Assembly (NCBI RefSeq): GCF_029643425.1
Contig: NZ_CP119106.1
Location: forward strand, 3,162,001-3,226,000
DNA length: 64,000 bases
Source of the DNA: Isoptericola sp. AK164
GTDB taxonomy: Bacteria > Actinomycetota > Actinomycetes > Actinomycetales > Cellulomonadaceae
Reading direction: 5' to 3'
Position numbers and translations under genes: made by a program. Positions 45,052-57,861 of the stretch are shown here, piece by piece. Each line of letters begins with the position of its first letter. Positions within the stretch are counted from its first letter, which is position 1. The notes beneath the pieces were generated by a model. It saw only the letters and a program-made list of their open reading frames with translations, had not been told where the DNA came from and made no database searches.

Positions 45052-48000
45052 TCACCACAGACCGCGGCGTCGTGAGACGAGCACTGCGGCTCCGGTGAGC
45101 AGCAGCAGGACGGCCGCAGCGACCATCGCCGAGACGTCGCTGCCCGTCTGCGGCAGCGGACCGGGCGGTCCCGGGACGGGCGGCGGGACGTCGAACGTGT
45201 TCGTGACCGTCACCGATCCCGGTGCGCCGGCGACGACGGTCACGGCCCCGGCGGCGCCTCCGTCGACGCTCGAGACCTCGCTGGCGGTCGCACCGCCGTC
45301 GTCGGTCTCGGTCACGAGGCACTCGGCACCGGCGGGCAGCCCGGCATAGGTGACGGGGTCGCCCGGCGTGAGCTCCCGGACCGCACCTCCGGGGATCTCG
45401 ATCCCGGCGTCCTGGAACGTGCACTCGACGGTCACCTCGAACGGGCCACCGCCGAGCTGGTCGGCACCAGGACCGGTGACGACCTTGTCCACGACGAGCG
45501 ACCCGACGTCGAACGTGTTTGTGACCGTGACCTCGGCCGGCCCGGCGTCCGTGGCCGGCACCGCGACCTGCCCGGGCTCGCCCCCCTCGACGGCGGTGGA
45601 GATCGTGGTCGCGGCCGCACCGGCCGCGTCGACCTCCGTCACGGTGCACTCGGCACCCACCGGCAGCCCCTCGTAGAGCGCCGGGACGTCCGGGGTCACC
45701 GCGCGGGTCGCCCCGCCGGGGACGTCGATCGGTGAGCCCTGGAAGGTGCAGGCCAGCGAGACCTCGAAGGGCGCCGAGACGAACGGTGCCCCGGGACCGT
45801 CGACCTCCTTGACGACCTCGATCGCGCCGGCGTCGTAGGTGTTGGTGACGGTGACGACCACCGGGTCCTCCAGCAGGGAGGTCTCGTCGACCGTCACCGT
45901 CTCCGGATCGATGCTCACCGCCGTGGCGCCGCCGGTGTCGACCTCGGTGAAGGTGCAGACGGCACCGTCGGGCAGCCCGTAGTAGGCGGCCGCGAAGCCC
46001 GGGCCGAACCGGCGGGTCGGACCGCTCGGGATCGGTACGGGGCTGCCGTTCAGCGAACACCCGATCTCCACCTGGTACGGCATCTGGTCGAACGGGATGG
46101 CACTGAGGTCGAGCTCGGCGAGGAACTCGGCGAGCTCGGCGAGGTCGATCGGACGCTCCGGCAGCGCCGGCAGCGCCGACAGGTCCGGCATCGACGGCGC
46201 GAACTCGGCCGCTTCCCCGTCGACGACCTTCTCCACCAGCAGCGGGCTGAGCTGGAAGGTGTTGGTCACGGTGATCGCCACGGGGTCGTCGCCACCGGTG
46301 ACGACGACCTCTCCCGGCTCGCCGCCGTCGACCGTGGTGGAGATCTCGACGGTCGTCGCACCGCCGTCCCCGGTCTCGGTGACCAGGCACTCGGAGCCCA
46401 CGGGCAGCCCCTCGTAGAGGATCGTGTCGCCCGCCTCCAGCGTGCGCGTCGCACCCCCGGGGATCGCAAGCTCGGCGTCCTCGTACGTGCACGCGAGCGT
46501 CACCTCGAAGGGTCCTGGCCCGTAGAGCGCGCCGAGCCCCTGCAGCTCCTTGGCGACCTCGATCGCCCCGACGTCGAACGTGTTGGTCACGACGACCTCG
46601 ACGGGTTCGGAGGCGCCGATGGTCACGGTCTCCGGGACGACGACGGCGCCGGTCGCCCCGGCGTCGTCGGTCTCGGTGACCGTGCACACGGCACCGGCCG
46701 GCACGTTCGAGATCTGCGCCTCCAGCGGGCCGGCTCCGCCGAGAGTCACCGTGTCCTCGTAGACGGTCCGGGGTGCGCCCGGCCCGTCCCCGTCGTCGTC
46801 GAAGGTGCACAGCACCTCGATCGTGAAGGGCCCTGTGCCGTAGGCGTCCGCGCCGTCGCCGTCGACGACCTTGAGCAGGTCGAGCGACCCGACGTCGAAC
46901 GTGTTGGTGAGCGTGACGCTGTTGCGCGGGATCTGGACGACGTCGCCGAGGAGGTCGAGGACCGCGCTCGTGCCGTCGTAGGTCTCCGGCTCCTGCAGTC
47001 CGTGCTGCACGGTGATCGTCGTGGACGACGCGTTCCCCGTCCCGGTCTCGGTGACGGCGCACTCCGAGCCGACGGGCAGGCCGGTGAACTCCACCGAGTC
47101 GCCGTCGCTCAGCTCGAACGTCATCGGGGTGTCCGCGTCGTACCCGTCCGCGTACACGGCCTCCCCGAGGAACGTGCACTCGACGGTGCCGTCGAACGGA
47201 CCGAACGTGATCGGCTCTCCGTCCTGGTCGACGGCGTCGGAGACGACCTCCTTGTCGACGACGAGGCTCGACAGGTTGTACACGTTGGTGGCCGTGATCG
47301 ACGCCGGTTCGCTCTGCTCGTCGATCGTCTCGGTGTCCACGGTCACGGTCTGCGGCGTCACGAGCAGCTCGGTCTGGCCGTCGCTGCCGTCCTCGGTGAG
47401 CGTGCACTCGGCGCCGTACGGCAGCTCGGGCACGACCGTCGGAGTACCTGGCGTCACGGTGATGGTGATCGGGTCGAGGTCCGCCTCGACCCAGGTGCCG
47501 ACGGCCGAGGCACACTGCACGGTCAGCTGGAAGGAGTCGGGGGCGTACTGCGCACCCTCGCCGGCGACGATCTTGTTCACCTCGAGGGTGCCCGACGCCG
47601 TGGCGACGCCGACCTTGGTGCCCTCGGTGGGCAGCAGGTTCTGTTCGGTGCCGTTCGGCAGCACGACCACACCCGAGGCCGCGGCCGAGTTCCAGGCGAT
47701 CGACCGGTCTCCGGCCTCGGGAACGGGCGGGGTGGTCGAGGTCGCGTCGAGCGCGATGAACTGGCCCGGCGCGAAGAGCTGATCCTGCGGGAACGTGATG
47801 ACGTTCTTGATCGCGGTGATCTCCTGCAGGATGCTGACGTCCAGATCGGTGGTCAACGGCGCCCACCCGGCCTCCGGGTCCTGCGGGCACACCGGCTCGT
47901 CCACCGGATCGTTGATGTCGTCCATGCAGTAGTCGTCGACGGTGGTGTAGAAGTAGTCGACCGTCGAGCCCTCCGGGGTGTTGACGACCTGCGGGAGCGG

Positions 48001-51000
48001 GTCGTCGGTGAAGTACGGCCCCCAGGCCGACCCGCGCTCGGAGTTCGCGAACGACCCGGTGTCACCGACGGCCGGGAACCGGTCGTAGACGACGACCTTG
48101 TCCATGGGCAGGTTGCCGACGTTGTCCACGCGGATGCGCCAGGTCTCGTCGCCACCCGGCGGGATGATCGGCGTGCACGGGTAGGCGTAGAAGCCGGCGG
48201 CGTTCGGCGCGCAGTCCTCCGGTGCCACGTTCCCCGGCTGGTCGGGGTCGACCATGATCCCCAGCGGGTACTCGTCGTCCGTGGACTTGACGAACTTGGA
48301 CTGGCTGAGCACGGCCGAGGGCACGGTCACCACGTCGGCGCTGGCCTCGCACGCGCCGGTCTCCTCGTTCAGGGTCGTCTCGCACTGGTCCCAGGGGCGG
48401 TCACCGGTCACGCCGGCGGTGTTCTCCACGACGGTGTTGGCCGCCAGGGTGACGCGGAACTGTACCTGCACCGTGATGGTGTAGGACTGGCCCACCTCGA
48501 GCACGGAGCCCTCGGGGAACGTGAACTCCAGCGACGAGATGTTGCCGGCCCTGTCGACGGTGACGTCGTCGGGATCGGTGGGCAGCGGGCTCCCGTTCGC
48601 GGGGTCCGGGGCGGCGCCCTGCAGCGCGTACGAGTAGGGCTCGTCGACGTCCGCGAGCCGGAGCTGGGGCCCGTCGGCGTCCGTCGGCATCGGATCGGTG
48701 ATCACGGGGTCGACGATCGGCCGGTCTCCCGTGTTGGTCACCGTGATGTTCATCGGCACCACGGCGTCGGGAGGTTCGGTCCCGTCCAGCGAACCGCGGA
48801 AGTCCTTGACGATCTCCACGGCGTTGGTGGCGTGCTGGTACAGCATCGACGCCTCGGCCTCGTCGCCGGAGCTGACCGGCACGACGTCCCCGGTGTCGGG
48901 GTCGACCACGAGGTCGGCACCGGTCGTCGTGCCCTGGACGGTGTTGCTCGCGACGCCGGGCGCGTCCTCCCCGGGAGCCGACGGGTTCGCCGCCAGGTCC
49001 GGCAGCACCTCGCCGCCCGAGCGCAGGTCGTCCCGGCGCAGGATCTGGATCGGCACCGGCTGCGTCGGGGTCGCCGGGTTCTCCCAGACGGACCCGTCGG
49101 TCTTGCTGAAGGTGAATCGCAGGCCCTGCACGTCCTCGGGAGTCACGCCGTCGGGCAGGTCGAACGTCGCCGACACGTCGTCGTCGACGACCCAGTCTCC
49201 ACCGGCGCGGGTCACCGGGTCGGTGGAGCCGGGGTTGCCGGAGAACACCCCGCCGACGAACGCGTCCACCTGCACCTGCTGGATCGGGTCGACCAGCGCG
49301 GCACTCGGGTCGAACCCGACGAAGTCGTACTGGTTCCAGAACTGCGGGTCGTCGTCGACGAGCACCATCTCGACGCTGCGCGACGGGCCGAGCGGCTGCC
49401 CGGTGAGCGTCATGACCACCGGGTCCTCGGACATGTTCGCGCCGTGGTACGGCTCGACGACCGTGTCCGGGGCGAACGACTTGCCGACCTCGAGGTCGAT
49501 GGACGCCGTCTGCAGCGTCATGTCGGCGTCGTCGTAGGCCTGCCGGACGTCGTCGTCGGTGCCGCCCGGGTCGTCGATCGTCGCGACCGCCCCGTCCGGC
49601 ACGGGGTTCTGGGTGACGATCGCTCCCGCGTCGTCGAGCAGGGCCTCCCCCGTGGCGCGGTCCGTCTCCCGGAGCCGCAGCGTGAGGTCCATCGAACCGG
49701 TCGCACCAGGTGCGACGAGCCCGTCGTAGGAGACCTCGATGCCGACGACGTCGACCAGGTCCGCCGCCACGAGAGCCTCGGCACCCACCTCGTCGAAGTC
49801 CGCCGTGGTGCCGTCGTCATACGTCAGCGTCACCGTGGTGGACGTCGCCCCGTCCGGGGGCGTCAGGTCGATACCGGTCAGGTCGAACACGTCGAACGGC
49901 GCTGTGCCGGCAGCCGTCTGGACGTCACCGGAGTCAGGTGCTCCCGGTTCCACCAGCCGGAGCTGGTCGACCTTCGCGTTCGAGGCGTTGGTGCCGGTGA
50001 TGCTCACCGTGGTCGACGGGTAGAACTGGGCCGGGGTGCCCGGCGGAGGTACCGAGATCGGCCCACCGGTCCACTCCTTGGCGACCGCCACGTTGAGCGG
50101 CTGGTCGATGATCAGCACGTCGTCGTCGTCGACGTCGGTGTACTCGTCGCCGTCGAACGTGGCAGTACCGCGCGCCGTGTCGTTGACCAGCCCCGGGTCC
50201 GAGGTGTTGTACAGCGTGCCGTTGGTCGACCCCAGCACCGGGGAACCGTCGGAGCGCTTGGTGTCCCGCACCTGGAACGTCAGATCCAGGTGCCGGCCGT
50301 CCGCCTGCGTGGAGCGGGCGACACCGTCACCAGCGGCGGGTTCGGTCGGGTCGGCAGGAGTCGCGCTGCGCGACGGGGACTCGGTGTAGACGACGCGCAC
50401 CGACACCGTGGACTCGACCTCGGCGTCGGTGAGGTCGACCCCGGGCATGCCGCCGTCGCAGGGAGCCGTCGTGGTGCATGTGGAGTTCGTCGCCTGGCCC
50501 CAGTCGGAACCGTCGTAGAGCTCGACGCCGACGATCGCGTCGTACTGGATCAGCGGGTCCGCCGCGCCGTCGATCGGCTCGACGCGCACCAGGTCGAAGG
50601 CGTCGTAGAAGGAGTCGGCGATCGCGGTGGTCTCCGGGTCGGCGACGTCGGAGACGACCATCGGATCGACGCCGTCGAAACCGTAGGTCGACCACGTGAT
50701 CTGGGCGGTCACCTCGTCGTCGGAGCGGGCCAGCACGCTGACGGGCTGCTCGCCGAGGAAGTCCTTGGCGATGAAGTTGATGCCCGGCCCCGGGTCCACC
50801 GGGTACGGATCGACGGTGTCGCACCCGACGGCCGGGTCCGTGGGGTCCACGGTGCCCGACGAGGCGCTGGACGACCCGCAGTTCTCGATCGGGTCGTCAC
50901 GGTCCGTGGGGCCCGTGTAGTCGGCGACGAAGTTCGGCTGGAAGCTGGTGCCCGGCGGGAACCCGTCAGCTGTCGAGTCGTAGACGAACTGCACGCCCTG

Positions 51001-52896
51001 GGCGTCGTCCGGCAGGTCGCAGTTCACCGTGTCGGGTCCTGTGTAGGGGCCGCAGTCCGGGGCCGGGACCCAGTCCGTGCCGTTCCAGTAGTTGACCGTC
51101 AGGGTGGAGTCGGCCGGCACGTCGGTGGAGCGGACGGCCGTCGGGGTGAAGTTGTCCGAGAAGTCGTCCGGGGAAGTCGGGTCGATCGGGTCCTGGATGA
51201 CGACCTGGTCGGCGTTCGCCGTCGAACCGTCCGGCCCGAACGGCAGCAGCTGGGACGGCAGCTGGACGATGACGGACTGGCCCGGCACCGCGGGGAAGGT
51301 GGACGGTGAGATGACCTTGTCCGTGCCGGTGGCGAGCCGGTCGGTCAGGGTGACCAGGTCCGCCGAGGCGGAGTCTTCCGCGTTCGGCACCTCGGCGGAG
51401 ATCTCGTTGGGGTGCGTGACCTCGTCGGCACCCTGGTCAGGGTCGGTGTCCGCGGTGAACGGGACGGTCGCTTCGCCCCCGGCGAGGATGCCCCCGTCGA
51501 AGGTGATCGCGAATCCGAGCACCTCGCAGGTCTCGGGCGGGTCGGGGAGCGTGTCGACGGTCGTGGTGGACTCGGTCGGGGTCGAACCGTCGGCACAGGT
51601 GAAGGTCACCGTGGCGGAGGCTGCCTCGGCCGGCCACGACACTCCGGCGCCGGCGCCGTCCGTGCCCCACCCGGTGAACGTGATCGCGTCATCGCCCTCG
51701 AAGGGGCTCGGGGTGCCGGGTGCGGGTTCGGTGATGGTCAGCGACGGCGTCGAGGTCCCGGTGTTCGTCGCACCGACCGTCACCGTGGTCGGGTCGCCCG
51801 CGCTGACCGTCGCGGGGTCGAAGCTCTTGGACGCGGAGACGTCGTTGTTGACCGGAGTGATCTCGTAGGTGTCCTCCGCCGTCGTCGGCTCGGACTGGTC
51901 CTCACCGTGGGTGACGAAGGACGAGACGTCGTTGGTGATGATCGTCTGTGTGGTGAGATCCACGACGGCATCGCTCTGCTGGACCTCGACCGGAATCGTG
52001 GCGGTCGCCCCGGGTTGGATGTCGCCGCTGAAGGTGTAGCGCACTCCCTGGACCGTGGCGGGGTCGACCGAGTCGTCGAGCGGTTCCCACGAGTCGCCGT
52101 CCCAGTACTCCTCGGTGACCGTGTCGGCGTTCGGCGGCATGGTGATGTCCCCGGTGCCCGTGTACTCCAGGTAGGTGAACGGGTTGGGGGTCGCCGACGG
52201 GTCGACGGGATCCTGGACGACGAGGGTGTCGACCGGGTCGTTGGAGGTGTTGGTGCTGCCGAGGGTGATCGTCGCCGGCGTGCCGGGTTCGGCGAGCGCA
52301 CCCTCCGGGTCGATGGACTTGGTGGTCTCGGAGTCCAGGATCAGCGGCACGGTCGGCGTGATGTCGTCGGAGGCCGACGCCTCGTCCGCGTTGTCCGAGT
52401 CGACCGTGGCCGTGTTGGTGATCGGCACGCCGTCGGCGCTGTACGGGATGTCCGCGTCGATCTGTGCCGTGACGGCGATCTGCACCTGGCCGCCGTTGGG
52501 GACGCTGTCGGCCGTGTAGGTCACGGTGTCGCCGTCGGTGTCGAGACTGCCTCCGACCGCGCTGCCCTGGTTCTGGATCGATGCGTCGACGAGCGTCAGC
52601 CCGTCGGGCAGCTCGTCGGTCATGGTGGTGGGGACGCAGGGATCGGAGTTCGGGTCGGAGCAGGAGAAGGAGACGACCCACTGCACCTGGTCGCCGGGTC
52701 CGTAGGGCCCCTCGGACACCTCGACCTTCTGGATGCCCCAGGTCGCCGCGGACGCCGTCGTCGCCGGTACCGCCACCAACGGCAGTGCCAGCGCGAGCAC
52801 TCCGAGCACGGACCAGCCGCGCCGGAACCGACGGTCCGTCCGCCGACTCGCGTGCCGTGTCGTTCCCCCGTCGGCCCGCCCCCGGCGTCCCAGCAT
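45052..52896 (-). CDS. giant LPXTG-anchored surface protein with DUF11-like and DUF5979-like repeats
   Basis: A 2614-aa secreted protein. Start MLGRRGRADGG at 52896 (GGGAGGGG 6 nt upstream; the frame is open to 52911), signal peptide ending near PATTASA. Residues up to about 1750 are DUF11-like beta-sandwich repeats. The last part holds seven DUF5979-type repeats of about 105-140 residues, each with a VxKxVxGxG start, an ECTF/ACTY strand, LPxGAEC and a closing VTNTF. It ends LPQTG, hydrophobic helix, RRRGLW: a sortase cell-wall anchor. Probably an adhesin or surface-layer stalk. The fifth DUF5979 repeat has an inserted helical stretch of about 40 residues. Confidence 0.9.
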   Translation of the reverse strand: MLGRRGRADGGTTRHASRRTDRRFRRGWSVLGVLALALPLVAVPATTASAATWGIQKVEVSEGPYGPGDQVQWVVSFSCSDPNSDPCVPTTMTDELPDGLTLVDASIQNQGSAVGGSLDTDGDTVTYTADSVPNGGQVQIAVTAQIDADIPYSADGVPITNTATVDSDNADEASASDDITPTVPLILDSETTKSIDPEGALAEPGTPATITLGSTNTSNDPVDTLVVQDPVDPSATPNPFTYLEYTGTGDITMPPNADTVTEEYWDGDSWEPLDDSVDPATVQGVRYTFSGDIQPGATATIPVEVQQSDAVVDLTTQTIITNDVSSFVTHGEDQSEPTTAEDTYEITPVNNDVSASKSFDPATVSAGDPTTVTVGATNTGTSTPSLTITEPAPGTPSPFEGDDAITFTGWGTDGAGAGVSWPAEAASATVTFTCADGSTPTESTTTVDTLPDPPETCEVLGFAITFDGGILAGGEATVPFTADTDPDQGADEVTHPNEISAEVPNAEDSASADLVTLTDRLATGTDKVISPSTFPAVPGQSVIVQLPSQLLPFGPDGSTANADQVVIQDPIDPTSPDDFSDNFTPTAVRSTDVPADSTLTVNYWNGTDWVPAPDCGPYTGPDTVNCDLPDDAQGVQFVYDSTADGFPPGTSFQPNFVADYTGPTDRDDPIENCGSSSASSGTVDPTDPAVGCDTVDPYPVDPGPGINFIAKDFLGEQPVSVLARSDDEVTAQITWSTYGFDGVDPMVVSDVADPETTAIADSFYDAFDLVRVEPIDGAADPLIQYDAIVGVELYDGSDWGQATNSTCTTTAPCDGGMPGVDLTDAEVESTVSVRVVYTESPSRSATPADPTEPAAGDGVARSTQADGRHLDLTFQVRDTKRSDGSPVLGSTNGTLYNTSDPGLVNDTARGTATFDGDEYTDVDDDDVLIIDQPLNVAVAKEWTGGPISVPPPGTPAQFYPSTTVSITGTNASNAKVDQLRLVEPGAPDSGDVQTAAGTAPFDVFDLTGIDLTPPDGATSTTVTLTYDDGTTADFDEVGAEALVAADLVDVVGIEVSYDGLVAPGATGSMDLTLRLRETDRATGEALLDDAGAIVTQNPVPDGAVATIDDPGGTDDDVRQAYDDADMTLQTASIDLEVGKSFAPDTVVEPYHGANMSEDPVVMTLTGQPLGPSRSVEMVLVDDDPQFWNQYDFVGFDPSAALVDPIQQVQVDAFVGGVFSGNPGSTDPVTRAGGDWVVDDDVSATFDLPDGVTPEDVQGLRFTFSKTDGSVWENPATPTQPVPIQILRRDDLRSGGEVLPDLAANPSAPGEDAPGVASNTVQGTTTGADLVVDPDTGDVVPVSSGDEAEASMLYQHATNAVEIVKDFRGSLDGTEPPDAVVPMNITVTNTGDRPIVDPVITDPMPTDADGPQLRLADVDEPYSYALQGAAPDPANGSPLPTDPDDVTVDRAGNISSLEFTFPEGSVLEVGQSYTITVQVQFRVTLAANTVVENTAGVTGDRPWDQCETTLNEETGACEASADVVTVPSAVLSQSKFVKSTDDEYPLGIMVDPDQPGNVAPEDCAPNAAGFYAYPCTPIIPPGGDETWRIRVDNVGNLPMDKVVVYDRFPAVGDTGSFANSERGSAWGPYFTDDPLPQVVNTPEGSTVDYFYTTVDDYCMDDINDPVDEPVCPQDPEAGWAPLTTDLDVSILQEITAIKNVITFPQDQLFAPGQFIALDATSTTPPVPEAGDRSIAWNSAAASGVVVLPNGTEQNLLPTEGTKVGVATASGTLEVNKIVAGEGAQYAPDSFQLTVQCASAVGTWVEADLDPITITVTPGTPTVVPELPYGAECTLTEDGSDGQTELLVTPQTVTVDTETIDEQSEPASITATNVYNLSSLVVDKEVVSDAVDQDGEPITFGPFDGTVECTFLGEAVYADGYDADTPMTFELSDGDSVEFTGLPVGSECAVTETGTGNASSTTITVQHGLQEPETYDGTSAVLDLLGDVVQIPRNSVTLTNTFDVGSLDLLKVVDGDGADAYGTGPFTIEVLCTFDDDGDGPGAPRTVYEDTVTLGGAGPLEAQISNVPAGAVCTVTETDDAGATGAVVVPETVTIGASEPVEVVVTNTFDVGAIEVAKELQGLGALYGPGPFEVTLACTYEDAELAIPGGATRTLEAGDTILYEGLPVGSECLVTETGDGGATTVEISTTVDGGEPGEVVVTGGDDPVAITVTNTFQLSPLLVEKVVDGEAAEFAPSMPDLSALPALPERPIDLAELAEFLAELDLSAIPFDQMPYQVEIGCSLNGSPVPIPSGPTRRFGPGFAAAYYGLPDGAVCTFTEVDTGGATAVSIDPETVTVDETSLLEDPVVVTVTNTYDAGAIEVVKEVDGPGAPFVSAPFEVSLACTFQGSPIDVPGGATRAVTPDVPALYEGLPVGAECTVTEVDAAGAAATTISTAVEGGEPGQVAVPATDAGPAEVTVTNTFDVGSLVVDKVVTGPGADQLGGGPFEVTVECTFQDAGIEIPGGAVRELTPGDPVTYAGLPAGAECLVTETDDGGATASEVSSVDGGAAGAVTVVAGAPGSVTVTNTFDVPPPVPGPPGPLPQTGSDVSAMVAAAVLLLLTGAAVLVSRRRGLW

Positions 52897-53441
52897 CGAT
52901 GCCCCTCCCACACGTCACTGCTCCCCCCGCAGGCCCGGATGCCCGCAGAGCCAGTTCCGACCGTGCCAGAATCGTGGAGGCTCAGCGCGTCGAAAGTGCC
53001 GTTTCCCAGGAGACTTGAGTTGTTTGGGGCACAATGTCCGAACAATCGATGAACTGTCGTAGCGGCATGGACCCCCGCCGGGAACGAGTTCGACCCGATG
53101 GCCACGAAGAGCAGTCTGCGCATCGCGAATCCGGTGATCCCGGGTCGAGGACGCCCTGGGTCCAGGCGTCCTCGCGCCCGGAGACCGTGGTGTCGCCGTC
53201 CAGGTCCTGCTGAGAAGTGGACGCACAGCGAGGCCCCGCCGAGCGTGGCGACACGCGCTGACCTGCGTCGATGCCCCGTGGGGCCACGACGGTGTCGCCC
53301 TGCGCACAGCGCGAGGAATTGGTGCAGAACACCTCATGACAGGACGAAGCCACACGCCCGGATCACGAAGTGATCACGGCGCGAAGAAATGGCGGAACTC
53401 GACCGGCCCGGCGGGCCGGACGGCCACGCCGGCAGAGAGTG
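52897..53441. other. intergenic region upstream of the giant surface-protein gene
   Basis: About 545 bp without a supported gene; short Ser/Arg-rich frames cross it. It has lower GC than its surroundings near 53010-53060. One hairpin at 53146-53174 (10-bp stem CGAGGACGCC/GGCGTCCTCG) could end the GT2 transcript or lie in the leader of the giant gene. The promoter of the giant gene should be here, but no clear -35/-10 pair could be assigned. Confidence 0.5.
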
Positions 53442-55331: not shown

Positions 55332-55421
55332 ACGTCGCATCCTAACGGCCCCCGCTCGTCGGTCGCCGCGCCCGCCCGGCAGGCATCCGGCGAGTCGGAG
55401 TCCGGCGCCGGGCCGCACGCG

Positions 55422-55452
55422 GAGGGCCGGGCGCGCACGGCGCCCGGCCCTC
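55422..55452 (-). terminator. terminator of the amidase-cohesin operon
   Basis: Perfect 13-bp stem GAGGGCCGGGCGC / GCGCCCGGCCCTC with a 5-nt loop, 7 nt past the cohesin-gene stop. Confidence 0.8.
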
Positions 55453-55459
55453 GACGGTC

Positions 55460-55987
55460 TCAGCCGCGACCGCGTCCTGGCGTGCTGACGGTCAACGTCG
55501 CCACGCCGGCGTCGTCGACGGTGGCGGTGTCCCGGTCCGTGCTCACGGTGACGACCGAGGCCAGGTCGATCTCGGCCTCGCCCGGCCCGTGGGTCCGGAA
55601 GGTCATCGTGGCCAGGTCGATGTCGCCGGACGCCGCCGGAGACGTCCCGAGCTTCGTGTGCACGACCTCGAGCGACCCCTTTGACACGGACTCGTTCGTG
55701 AAGCCCGAGATCTCCGTGGTGGCCGACCCCTTCACGTAGGTGAGGTCGCGGCGGTCGTACTCGAGCGTCAGCTCGTAGGCGTACAGGTCCACGGCGTCGG
55801 ACGCCGTGACGGTCACCTCGACGGTCTCGCCGGGGCCCGGCGCGACGTCCGAGACCTCCACGGCGAACGACGTCTCGGCGTCGTCCGCCGTGGCCACGGC
55901 GGCGCCGCCGGCGCACAGGGCGAGGCCGAGGACTCCGGCCCCTGCCAGGAGACGGGTCCTGCCGACCCGCGCGGGCGTTGTGGTCAT
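55460..55987 (-). CDS. secreted single-cohesin protein
   Basis: A 175-aa exported protein: signal peptide (TRLLAGAGVLGLALCAGGAAVATA, cleavage near 34), then one cohesin domain filling the rest (about 38-168). Cohesin features: GETVEVTVTASDAVDLYAYELTLEYD, then DLTYVKGSATT, SGDIDLATMTFRTHGPGEAEIDL and a final beta-strand VATLTVS. No anchor, no second domain. The gene is 44 nt after the dockerin-bearing amidase in the same operon, with ribosome binding site GGAAGG 8 nt before ATG 55987. Cohesins bind dockerins, so a complex with the neighbouring enzyme is likely. Confidence 0.85.
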   Translation of the reverse strand: MTTTPARVGRTRLLAGAGVLGLALCAGGAAVATADDAETSFAVEVSDVAPGPGETVEVTVTASDAVDLYAYELTLEYDRRDLTYVKGSATTEISGFTNESVSKGSLEVVHTKLGTSPAASGDIDLATMTFRTHGPGEAEIDLASVVTVSTDRDTATVDDAGVATLTVSTPGRGRG

Positions 55988-56031
55988 GGTCCGGTCCTTC
56001 CGAAGGCGGGTGGTCGTGGTGGTCGCGCGGC

Positions 56032-57861
56032 TCACGGGGCGATCTCCCCGTACAGGGCGGGAGCCGTCCGCGCGCCAGTGGCCTGCTCGAAGGAGTAGGT
56101 CAGGCCCAGCAGGGAGCCCTCGTCGAAGTCGCGGCCGAGGAACTCGAGGTTGACGCCGGCGCCGTCGATGGTGCCGTCGGCGGGGATCGCCTGCCCCATG
56201 GGGACGGTGACGGACGGCATGCCGGTGTTCGGGCTCAGGCGCAGGTTGCGGCCCTGGGTGCGGTAGGGATTCCCCGACGGGTAGACCAGGGCGTCGAGCT
56301 CGGCCTCGTCGAGCATGCCGGTCACGAGCTCCTTGCCCATCGCGAGCAGCTGGGTGTGCGAACCGTCCGGGCCGGCCCACGCCTCGTACTCCTCCTCGGT
56401 GACCGCCGCACGACGCTCGTAGGTCCGCTGCCTGCTGGTGACGAACCGCCCGGTGTCGACGATCTCCGGCAGGGTGCGTGCCTCGACCTCCGGAGCGAGG
56501 TACGCCTCGACGTACTCGGCGAGGTCGTGCCGGAACTCCGGCGTGCTGCCGGAGCCCTCGGCGAGCACCGTGGCGAAGGCCTCGGGCGCCTCGATCTCCA
56601 CGACCTCGGCCCCGAGGGACTCGAAGGTCTCGACGGCCTCCGCCCAGAGGCGGGTGGTCGTCGCGTTGCTCCCGAGCATCGAGGGCACGTAGCCGATGCG
56701 GGCGCCGTCGAGAGCGTCGGCGTCGAGGTAGGCGGTGTAGGACTCGGGGACCAGTCCCTCCTGCCGTGCGGTGACCGGGTCGTTCTCGTCCACGCCCACC
56801 ACGGCGTCCAACGCCACGGCGGCATCGGTGACGGAGCGGGTCATCGGGCCGCCGGTGTCCTGGCTGAGCGCCAGCGGCACGATCCCGTCGCGGCTCGCGA
56901 GACCGACGGTCGGTCGCACGCCCACGAGCTGGTTGTACGAGGACGGCACGCGGATCGAGCCGCCGGTGTCGGTCCCGAAGCCGATCCCGGCCAGGTTCGC
57001 CGCGATGGCCGCGCCCGTGCCGCCGCTGGAGCCGCCGGCGGTCCGGGAGGTGTCGTACGGGCTGGCGACGTACGTGGTCTCGCCGGCCGCCTGGTACGAG
57101 GTGAACTGCGAGGAGAAGCCGTAGGCGAACTCGTCGAGGCTGGCCTTGGCCATGACGACCGCGCCGGCGTCCCGCAGCCCGGCGACCATGGTCGCGTCGT
57201 CGGTGGTGAGGTTGTCGTCCCAGCAGCCGCAACCGGCGGTGGTCGGCATGTCGACGGTGTTGTAGTTGTCCTTCACCGCGACCGGGACGCCGAGCAGCAT
57301 GCTCGTCATGCCGGTCGCGGCACGCTCGGCGTCCGCCTCCGCGGCCCTGTCGAGGGCCAGATCGCTGGTGGAGATGATCGACGCCAGGGGACGCCCGTCC
57401 TCGGCCGGGTCCACCAGGGTGCGGTCGTAGGCGTCGATACGATCGAGATAGTCCTGGGTGATCTCCACCGAGGTCGTCACACCGGCGTTCATCGCGGCCT
57501 GCATGTCGACGACGGAGGCCTCGACGAGGTCGAACGGGCCGTCGTCGTAGACCATGCGCTGGGAGAGGTCCGCCAGGTCGGCGACAGTGATCTCGCCGTC
57601 GCCGTCGGTGTCGGCGACGGCGACTTCGTGCCAGCCCTTCGACCTGGTGCCGGTGCCGAGCGCGTCGGCCAGCACCTCGAGGTCGGCGGTGGTGACCTGC
57701 CGGTCACCGGTGAGGTCGAGCTCGCTGTAGTAGGGGGCCAGGAACGCGGCGTCGGGCTGGTCGGCAGCTGCCGCGGGCGCGGCACCGACGGCCACGGCGG
57801 CCGTTCCGGCGAGGGTCGCGGCAGCTCCTGTCGCCACGACACGCATGCAGGGAATCCTCAC
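56032..57861 (-). CDS. secreted amidase with N-terminal type I dockerin
   Basis: A 609-aa exported amidase-signature hydrolase. Signal peptide to about 33; dockerin with two calcium loops D49-x-T51-x-D53...D60 and D84-x-D86-x-D88...D95; then the amidase domain (about 115-605) with intact triad K197 (PVAVKDN), S278 (GGSSGG) and nucleophile S302 (GTDTGGSIR). It should cleave amide bonds outside the cell; substrate unknown. GTG at 57861 is chosen for its GGAGGAG 7 nt upstream; ATG 57846 is possible. First gene of a two-gene operon with the cohesin protein. Confidence 0.9.
   Translation of the reverse strand: MRIPCMRVVATGAAATLAGTAAVAVGAAPAAAADQPDAAFLAPYYSELDLTGDRQVTTADLEVLADALGTGTRSKGWHEVAVADTDGDGEITVADLADLSQRMVYDDGPFDLVEASVVDMQAAMNAGVTTSVEITQDYLDRIDAYDRTLVDPAEDGRPLASIISTSDLALDRAAEADAERAATGMTSMLLGVPVAVKDNYNTVDMPTTAGCGCWDDNLTTDDATMVAGLRDAGAVVMAKASLDEFAYGFSSQFTSYQAAGETTYVASPYDTSRTAGGSSGGTGAAIAANLAGIGFGTDTGGSIRVPSSYNQLVGVRPTVGLASRDGIVPLALSQDTGGPMTRSVTDAAVALDAVVGVDENDPVTARQEGLVPESYTAYLDADALDGARIGYVPSMLGSNATTTRLWAEAVETFESLGAEVVEIEAPEAFATVLAEGSGSTPEFRHDLAEYVEAYLAPEVEARTLPEIVDTGRFVTSRQRTYERRAAVTEEEYEAWAGPDGSHTQLLAMGKELVTGMLDEAELDALVYPSGNPYRTQGRNLRLSPNTGMPSVTVPMGQAIPADGTIDGAGVNLEFLGRDFDEGSLLGLTYSFEQATGARTAPALYGEIAP

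Follow-up and report, generated by a model that had tools for sequence, protein, structure and literature searches.

We asked what a lone cohesin gene beside the gene of a dockerin-bearing amidase might do in an actinobacterium. Most knowledge of cohesin–dockerin recognition comes from cellulosomes, which hold many enzymes. The locus lies in the window, i.e., the whole stretch of 64,000 nucleotides from Isoptericola sp. AK164 (contig NZ_CP119106.1) that was analyzed. A first-pass annotation of its letters had described a secreted amidase carrying a type I dockerin, followed after 44 nucleotides by a protein made up essentially of one cohesin domain. Both genes were found where it had placed them, the spacer is exactly 44 nucleotides with the cohesin downstream, and the calcium loops are at D49-D60 and D84-D95, as it had read them. 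We consider it probable that this gene pair specifies a single enzyme together with a docking partner of its own, anchored in the family at large and forming a soluble heterodimer here.

The features of the pair, with the basis of each in brackets, are as follows.

56032..57861, minus strand: dockerin-amidase of 609 amino acids with a GTG start, probably secreted (translation, Pfam; signal-like residues 1-34 by eye)
57760..57861, minus strand: signal-peptide-like N-terminus of the amidase, residues 1-34 (translation read by eye)
57556..57717, minus strand: type I dockerin, residues 49-102 (PF00404)
57682..57717, minus strand: dockerin calcium loop 1, D49-D60, DLTGDRQVTTAD (translation)
57577..57612, minus strand: dockerin calcium loop 2, D84-D95, DTDGDGEITVAD (translation)
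56107..57465, minus strand: amidase-signature domain, residues 133-585 (PF01425, E=5.7e-79)
55460..55987, minus strand: single-cohesin protein of 175 amino acids, probably secreted, without a sortase tail (translation, Pfam, motif and hydropathy)
55883..55987, minus strand: signal-peptide-like N-terminus of the cohesin protein, residues 1-35 (translation read by eye)
55520..55864, minus strand: cohesin domain, residues 42-156 of 175 (PF00963, E=2.4e-11)
55400..55462, minus strand: hairpin with a 13-pair stem just after the cohesin stop codon (fold energy against shuffles)

The window cohesin belongs to the cohesin fold, and its match to PF00963 scored 44.4 bits against a curated cut-off of 24.1. 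The dockerin (PF00404, Dockerin_1; cut-off 22.9 bits) scored 22.2 bits with hmmscan, just under the cut-off, whereas the search of the whole genome gave it 26.4 bits, which exceeds the cut-off; it consists of two 12-residue calcium loops in a tandem repeat, both intact, as in a type I dockerin. In the enzyme domain, K197, S278 and S302 occupy the catalytic motifs of the PF01425 family, to which the protein belongs, and we take these residues to be the catalytic Lys-Ser-Ser of the amidase signature family. The nearest solved relative of the enzyme domain was PDB 1m21 (E 3.8e-72), with the match restricted to query residues 109-601. PDB 1m21 and 1m22 are the peptide amidase of Stenotrophomonas maltophilia, and the likeness is limited to the amidase region of the window protein, whose activity would be peptide-amidase-like. 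Purine-rich stretches resembling ribosome-binding sites precede both start codons, and the signal-like N-termini indicate that both proteins are probably exported. The hairpin after the cohesin gene (-42.1 kcal/mol, z -2.41, with 4 of 200 shuffles equally good) possibly marks the end of the transcript; the terminator scan returned no terminator, and no T-run follows the hairpin.

We then assessed whether the pair is conserved. The scan with the window amidase gave 49 loci, 43 of which are actinobacterial, named and have a dockerin. The cohesin adjoins the dockerin-amidase or shares its reading frame in 39 of these 43 loci, and the minimal 1:1 non-cellulosomal pair around an amidase that the first-pass annotation had proposed is supported by this conservation. 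The refuting case that the annotation had named, relatives whose amidase lacks a neighboring cohesin gene, was checked, and the pair withstood it. The remaining four loci (L005, L012, L013 and L025) are at contig ends, starting 4 to 340 nucleotides before the match. Three of the four genomes carry a lone cohesin on another contig, and the genome search found no cohesin in the fourth, G330.

Whole-genome Pfam searches covered 43 genomes, i.e., the host genome (G000) and 42 others; the genome of locus L028 is outside this set. One Pfam cohesin was found in 37 genomes, none in six, and never two; the family profile recovered a cohesin gene in five of those six. Similarly, one Pfam dockerin was found in 37 genomes, two in the host and none in five, and the amidases of these five have calcium-loop motifs, with one loop only in L027. 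Single searches missed members that others recovered. The cohesins of L006 and L014 escaped hmmscan and were found by the family profile, and the genome search gave L006 46 bits. The loop-motif search reported one loop for L018, which has a variant loop; the motif was absent from L055-L057, which are cut stretches, and present in the corresponding full loci L046, L041 and L199. At the 35 amidase loci that lack dockerin-loop motifs (L047-L049, L051-L053 and L067-L095), no cohesin lay within the stretch examined.

Wider draws gave the same picture. Among 297 genomes of the order, 13 had a Pfam cohesin at E 0.001, the host included, and 12 of the 13 cohesins lie beside or within this amidase, which puts the pairing of amidase and cohesin beyond chance; the host and two more of these 12 also belong to the set described above. 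The exception, L064, is a cohesin match under the cut-off in a 4186-residue frame with no such amidase adjoining. The taxonomic family of the host, which also includes Oerskovia, Cellulomonas and Cellulosimicrobium, was searched with the window cohesin; 26 of 221 genomes had a match, and the amidase adjoins the cohesin in 19 of the 20 loci examined, with L162 lying near a contig end. Clustering of the flanking frames by single linkage yielded no conserved functional neighborhood: three large clusters held amidase frames and antisense frames, and the others, common to at most eight loci, look like genus-level synteny. Among 396 genomes of the phylum, a Pfam cohesin was found only in the host and in three genomes of one genus. 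These three (L154-L156) belong to a genus of roughly 2-Mb genomes, and their cohesins lie inside frames of more than 2100 residues. As a separate observation, a record named Sphaerisporangium cinnabarinum ATCC 31213 (L050) carries a pair nearly identical to that of Cellulosimicrobium funkei and is probably mislabelled or contaminated.

The tails of the cohesins suggest what the pairing is for. By motif and hydropathy, 33 of the 34 partner cohesins encoded separately end with an LxxTG motif, a hydrophobic stretch and basic residues; the only separate partner cohesin without this tail, L010, has a broken frame. In the draw from the order, the tail was present in all 11 of the other paired cohesins, including the fused L057. 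LASTG and LAWTG predominate among the motifs, and we take these to be substrates of class E sortases. An NCBIfam check of six cohesins placed only L019 above curated cut-offs (LAVTG and LPXTG models); L006, L014 and L041 matched the LAVTG model, and L045 and L022 the LAXTG small-protein model only, all below cut-off. Given the sortase-type tail in nearly all separate relatives, the family cohesin looks most simply like a cell-wall receptor and the family like a 1:1 surface-docking system.

The window cohesin has no such tail. It contains no LxxTG motif, and its best 18-residue hydropathy was 0.52 within the last 50 residues. We considered an overlooked anchor and rejected it, as its own frame and the two other minus-strand frames near the gene end (55333-55700) contain neither LxxTG nor a hydrophobic stretch. 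A lipobox (LALC) was also considered, and the residue at -1 misfits the consensus. The first-pass annotation had described a cohesin without scaffold or anchor; this stands for the host and for fusions in Nocardioides, and does not extend to the family, in which nearly all separate cohesins are tailed. The genome of the host encodes three sortases, one above the class E cut-off and one above the class F cut-off. Elsewhere in the window (45052-52911, minus strand), a 2619-residue surface protein combines seven stretches of DUF5979 with a match to DUF11 and an anchor of the LPQTG type.

Natural fusions bear on the same question. In the Nocardioides loci L037, L039 and L040, the cohesin follows the amidase in a single frame, and the chain of L037 runs on into an apparently shifted frame. 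L038 has its cohesin ahead of the dockerin. Pfam recognized a dockerin (just under the cut-off), an amidase and a cohesin in L039, L040 and L199, and an amidase and a cohesin in L038, whose dockerin was recognized by its loops. L199, from a draft genome rated 69% complete, unites dockerin, amidase, cohesin and a LAVTG-type tail in one chain of 963 residues, and L039 and L040 keep cohesins without a recognized anchor. Both modules thus share one chain in L037, L039, L040 and L199, where tethering needs no docking, and the window pair has no anchor; these observations favor an explanation in which the cohesin regulates the amidase as an inhibitor, stabilizer or folding partner, with surface anchoring secondary. 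However, an anchor-type tail would be superfluous for a pure chaperone or inhibitor, and no inhibitory feature was identified, although none was looked for specifically. We regard such regulation as possible, if rather unlikely. Alternatively, the dockerin and cohesin may form a self-contained part of the enzyme, clamping or stabilizing the amidase or joining fused enzymes head to tail, with anchoring optional. This would explain why both modules are kept in single-chain fusions and in the anchorless window pair; we consider this explanation unlikely.

The origin of the window pair was examined using trees of both proteins. The window amidase and three enzymes of Microbacterium form one group (94/84), which adjoins the enzymes of Cellulosimicrobium and Oerskovia flava (80/79); the best identity of the window amidase is 79%, to L042. 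In the cohesin tree, the six cohesins located downstream or C-terminally cluster together, apart from the 34 located upstream or N-terminally; the cohesin of L199, absent from this tree, is C-terminal and of the upstream type by eye. The window cohesin falls among the downstream type (98/95) on an end branch of 1.23, and this grouping is tentative because the branch is long. Its best identity is 41% in the tree set and 44% in the family search. The window pair may therefore be a mosaic, or its cohesin may merely be fast-evolving. A search with the window cohesin found no match in 17 other genomes of the genus, of which one has any dockerin. Nine of the 17 have 0.2 to 1.3 kb between the DUF5926 gene and the CoA-transferase gene that flank the pair in the host, and the pair is absent there; the empty site was counted in these nine, the CoA-transferase gene of the other eight being outside the stretch examined. 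The simplest reading is that the two-gene unit was gained in the host, the alternative being repeated loss of the pair in the other genomes of the genus. The window pair is a derived member of its family, with an anchorless and divergent cohesin in a two-gene island.

Several observations weigh against an enzyme with a dedicated docking partner. The control using dockerin-less amidases is loose, because most of its 35 loci are distant relatives (about 37-44% identical) seen with about 1.5 kb of flank. The fused chains keep both modules; therefore, anchoring is not the whole story, and contact between dockerin and cohesin may stabilize or organize the enzyme. We also modeled a stretch of a natural cohesin–dockerin fusion with AlphaFold, using alignments A4 and A5; in A5, the cohesin rows end in a few misplaced residues. 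Both modules were folded, at mostly 93-98 for the blocks of the cohesin and 91-93 for the core of the dockerin; however, the relative placement of the modules was not confident at a predicted template modelling score (pTM) of 0.61, a value also obtained when the dockerin was poorly modeled. Finally, the cohesin is divergent beside an amidase that is 79% identical to L042; therefore, the cohesin could be losing its function.

Taken further, the last point would make the window cohesin a decaying remnant that has lost its anchor and drifts in its domain, with the amidase now a free secreted enzyme. The long branch and the absent anchor are consistent with this, and joint decay may occur, since L027 joins a disrupted cohesin frame to a dockerin that lacks one calcium loop. 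In this locus (L027:4879-7743, Microbacterium sp. Marseille-Q6648), the cohesin frame continues into the amidase frame and the anchor is in another frame, which looks like joint decay or a sequence error; cohesin frames are broken in L010 and L027. The window cohesin, however, has an intact frame, a Pfam match, a leader resembling a ribosome-binding site and a signal-like start, both loops of the window dockerin are intact, and the Nocardioides fusions L039 and L040 also retain cohesins without a recognized anchor. We therefore judge decay to be improbable.

The host genome (one contig, 3.58 Mb) was searched for further cohesins and dockerins, as the first-pass annotation had suggested. The second half of this search was productive: the dockerin of the window amidase is joined by another at the C-terminus of an S8 subtilase with an I9 propeptide and a PA domain (L004:4515-8612; host genome 2024515-2028612), far from the single Pfam cohesin of the host, which is that of the window. 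A cohesin within the subtilase, apparent by eye, was rejected, as there was no Pfam match and the best domain of the family profile scored 2.1 bits. A cellulosome was also rejected; with one Pfam cohesin, there is neither a scaffoldin with several cohesins nor a set of many dockerin enzymes. It is highly improbable that the cohesin also recruits other dockerin proteins into a small multi-enzyme complex, for which the subtilase dockerin is an argument, because a single cohesin cannot assemble several enzymes simultaneously, the other 42 genomes never have more than one Pfam dockerin, and the single dockerin-bearing genome among the 17 of the genus has no match to the window cohesin.

We return to one enzyme with a dedicated docking partner and propose the following mechanism. 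The amidase and the cohesin protein would both be exported, and the N-terminal dockerin of the amidase, with calcium present, would bind the lone cohesin to give a 1:1 complex. In the family, a sortase-anchored cohesin would recapture the secreted amidase at the surface of its own cell without a scaffoldin. In the host, where the pair would have been acquired (or retained) as a two-gene island with an anchorless cohesin, the complex would be a soluble secreted heterodimer with the cohesin as a tightly bound accessory subunit. The binding, its dependence on calcium, the soluble location and any stabilizing effect of the cohesin are what we infer from these genes.

In Clostridium perfringens, an enzyme carries the cohesin, and the code is common to several enzymes. 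The glycoside hydrolases of this species (NagJ/GH84C, GH33; PDB 2jh2, 2vo8, 2w1n, 2ozn) contain the closest non-cellulosomal cohesin and dockerin modules; in contrast, the actinobacterial cohesin would serve one amidase as its dedicated carrier, and in most relatives the cohesin has an anchor-type tail. The excerpts of PMC11557425 describe cellulosome-type single-cohesin and LPxTG cohesin proteins, and our family resembles these non-surface-layer-homology anchoring scaffoldins and single-cohesin proteins in using a single cohesin, or a cohesin with a sorting signal, as a putative cell-wall receptor. Unlike the cellulosome bacteria of those excerpts, it concerns actinobacteria, an amidase, and one cohesin with usually one dockerin per genome. 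Archaeal non-cellulosomal modules are known from Archaeoglobus fulgidus (2xdh) and from a survey of anaerobic methanotrophic archaea (ANME; PMC9012536), where the excerpts leave the ANME partners unassigned, whereas adjacency and fusion suggest the actinobacterial partners; in excerpts of a methanogen study (PMC11452385), cohesins may help anchor hydrogenases. The genome of Cellulosimicrobium cellulans F16 is said, in the excerpts of PMC4562250, to have neither cohesin nor dockerin. In the genus matched to Cellulosimicrobium, we found 17 genomes with one window-cohesin match each, the amidase adjoining in 16 and a contig end in one; this contrasts with that statement at the level of the genus, not for F16 itself. 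Among the titles and abstract openings listed in our literature searches, none announces this actinobacterial amidase pair, and the survey of non-cellulosomal modules by Peer et al. 2009 may list some of the proteins.

These results describe a nearly closed code of one cohesin and one dockerin, spread over several actinobacterial families and built around an amidase; adjacency, exclusivity and natural fusions suggest which proteins are the partners. The pairs may serve as orthogonal pairs in protein engineering. Anchored, fused and anchorless forms already exist side by side for comparison, and the family lends itself, as a clean natural example, to asking what is gained from one docking event, be it surface recapture, stability or regulation.
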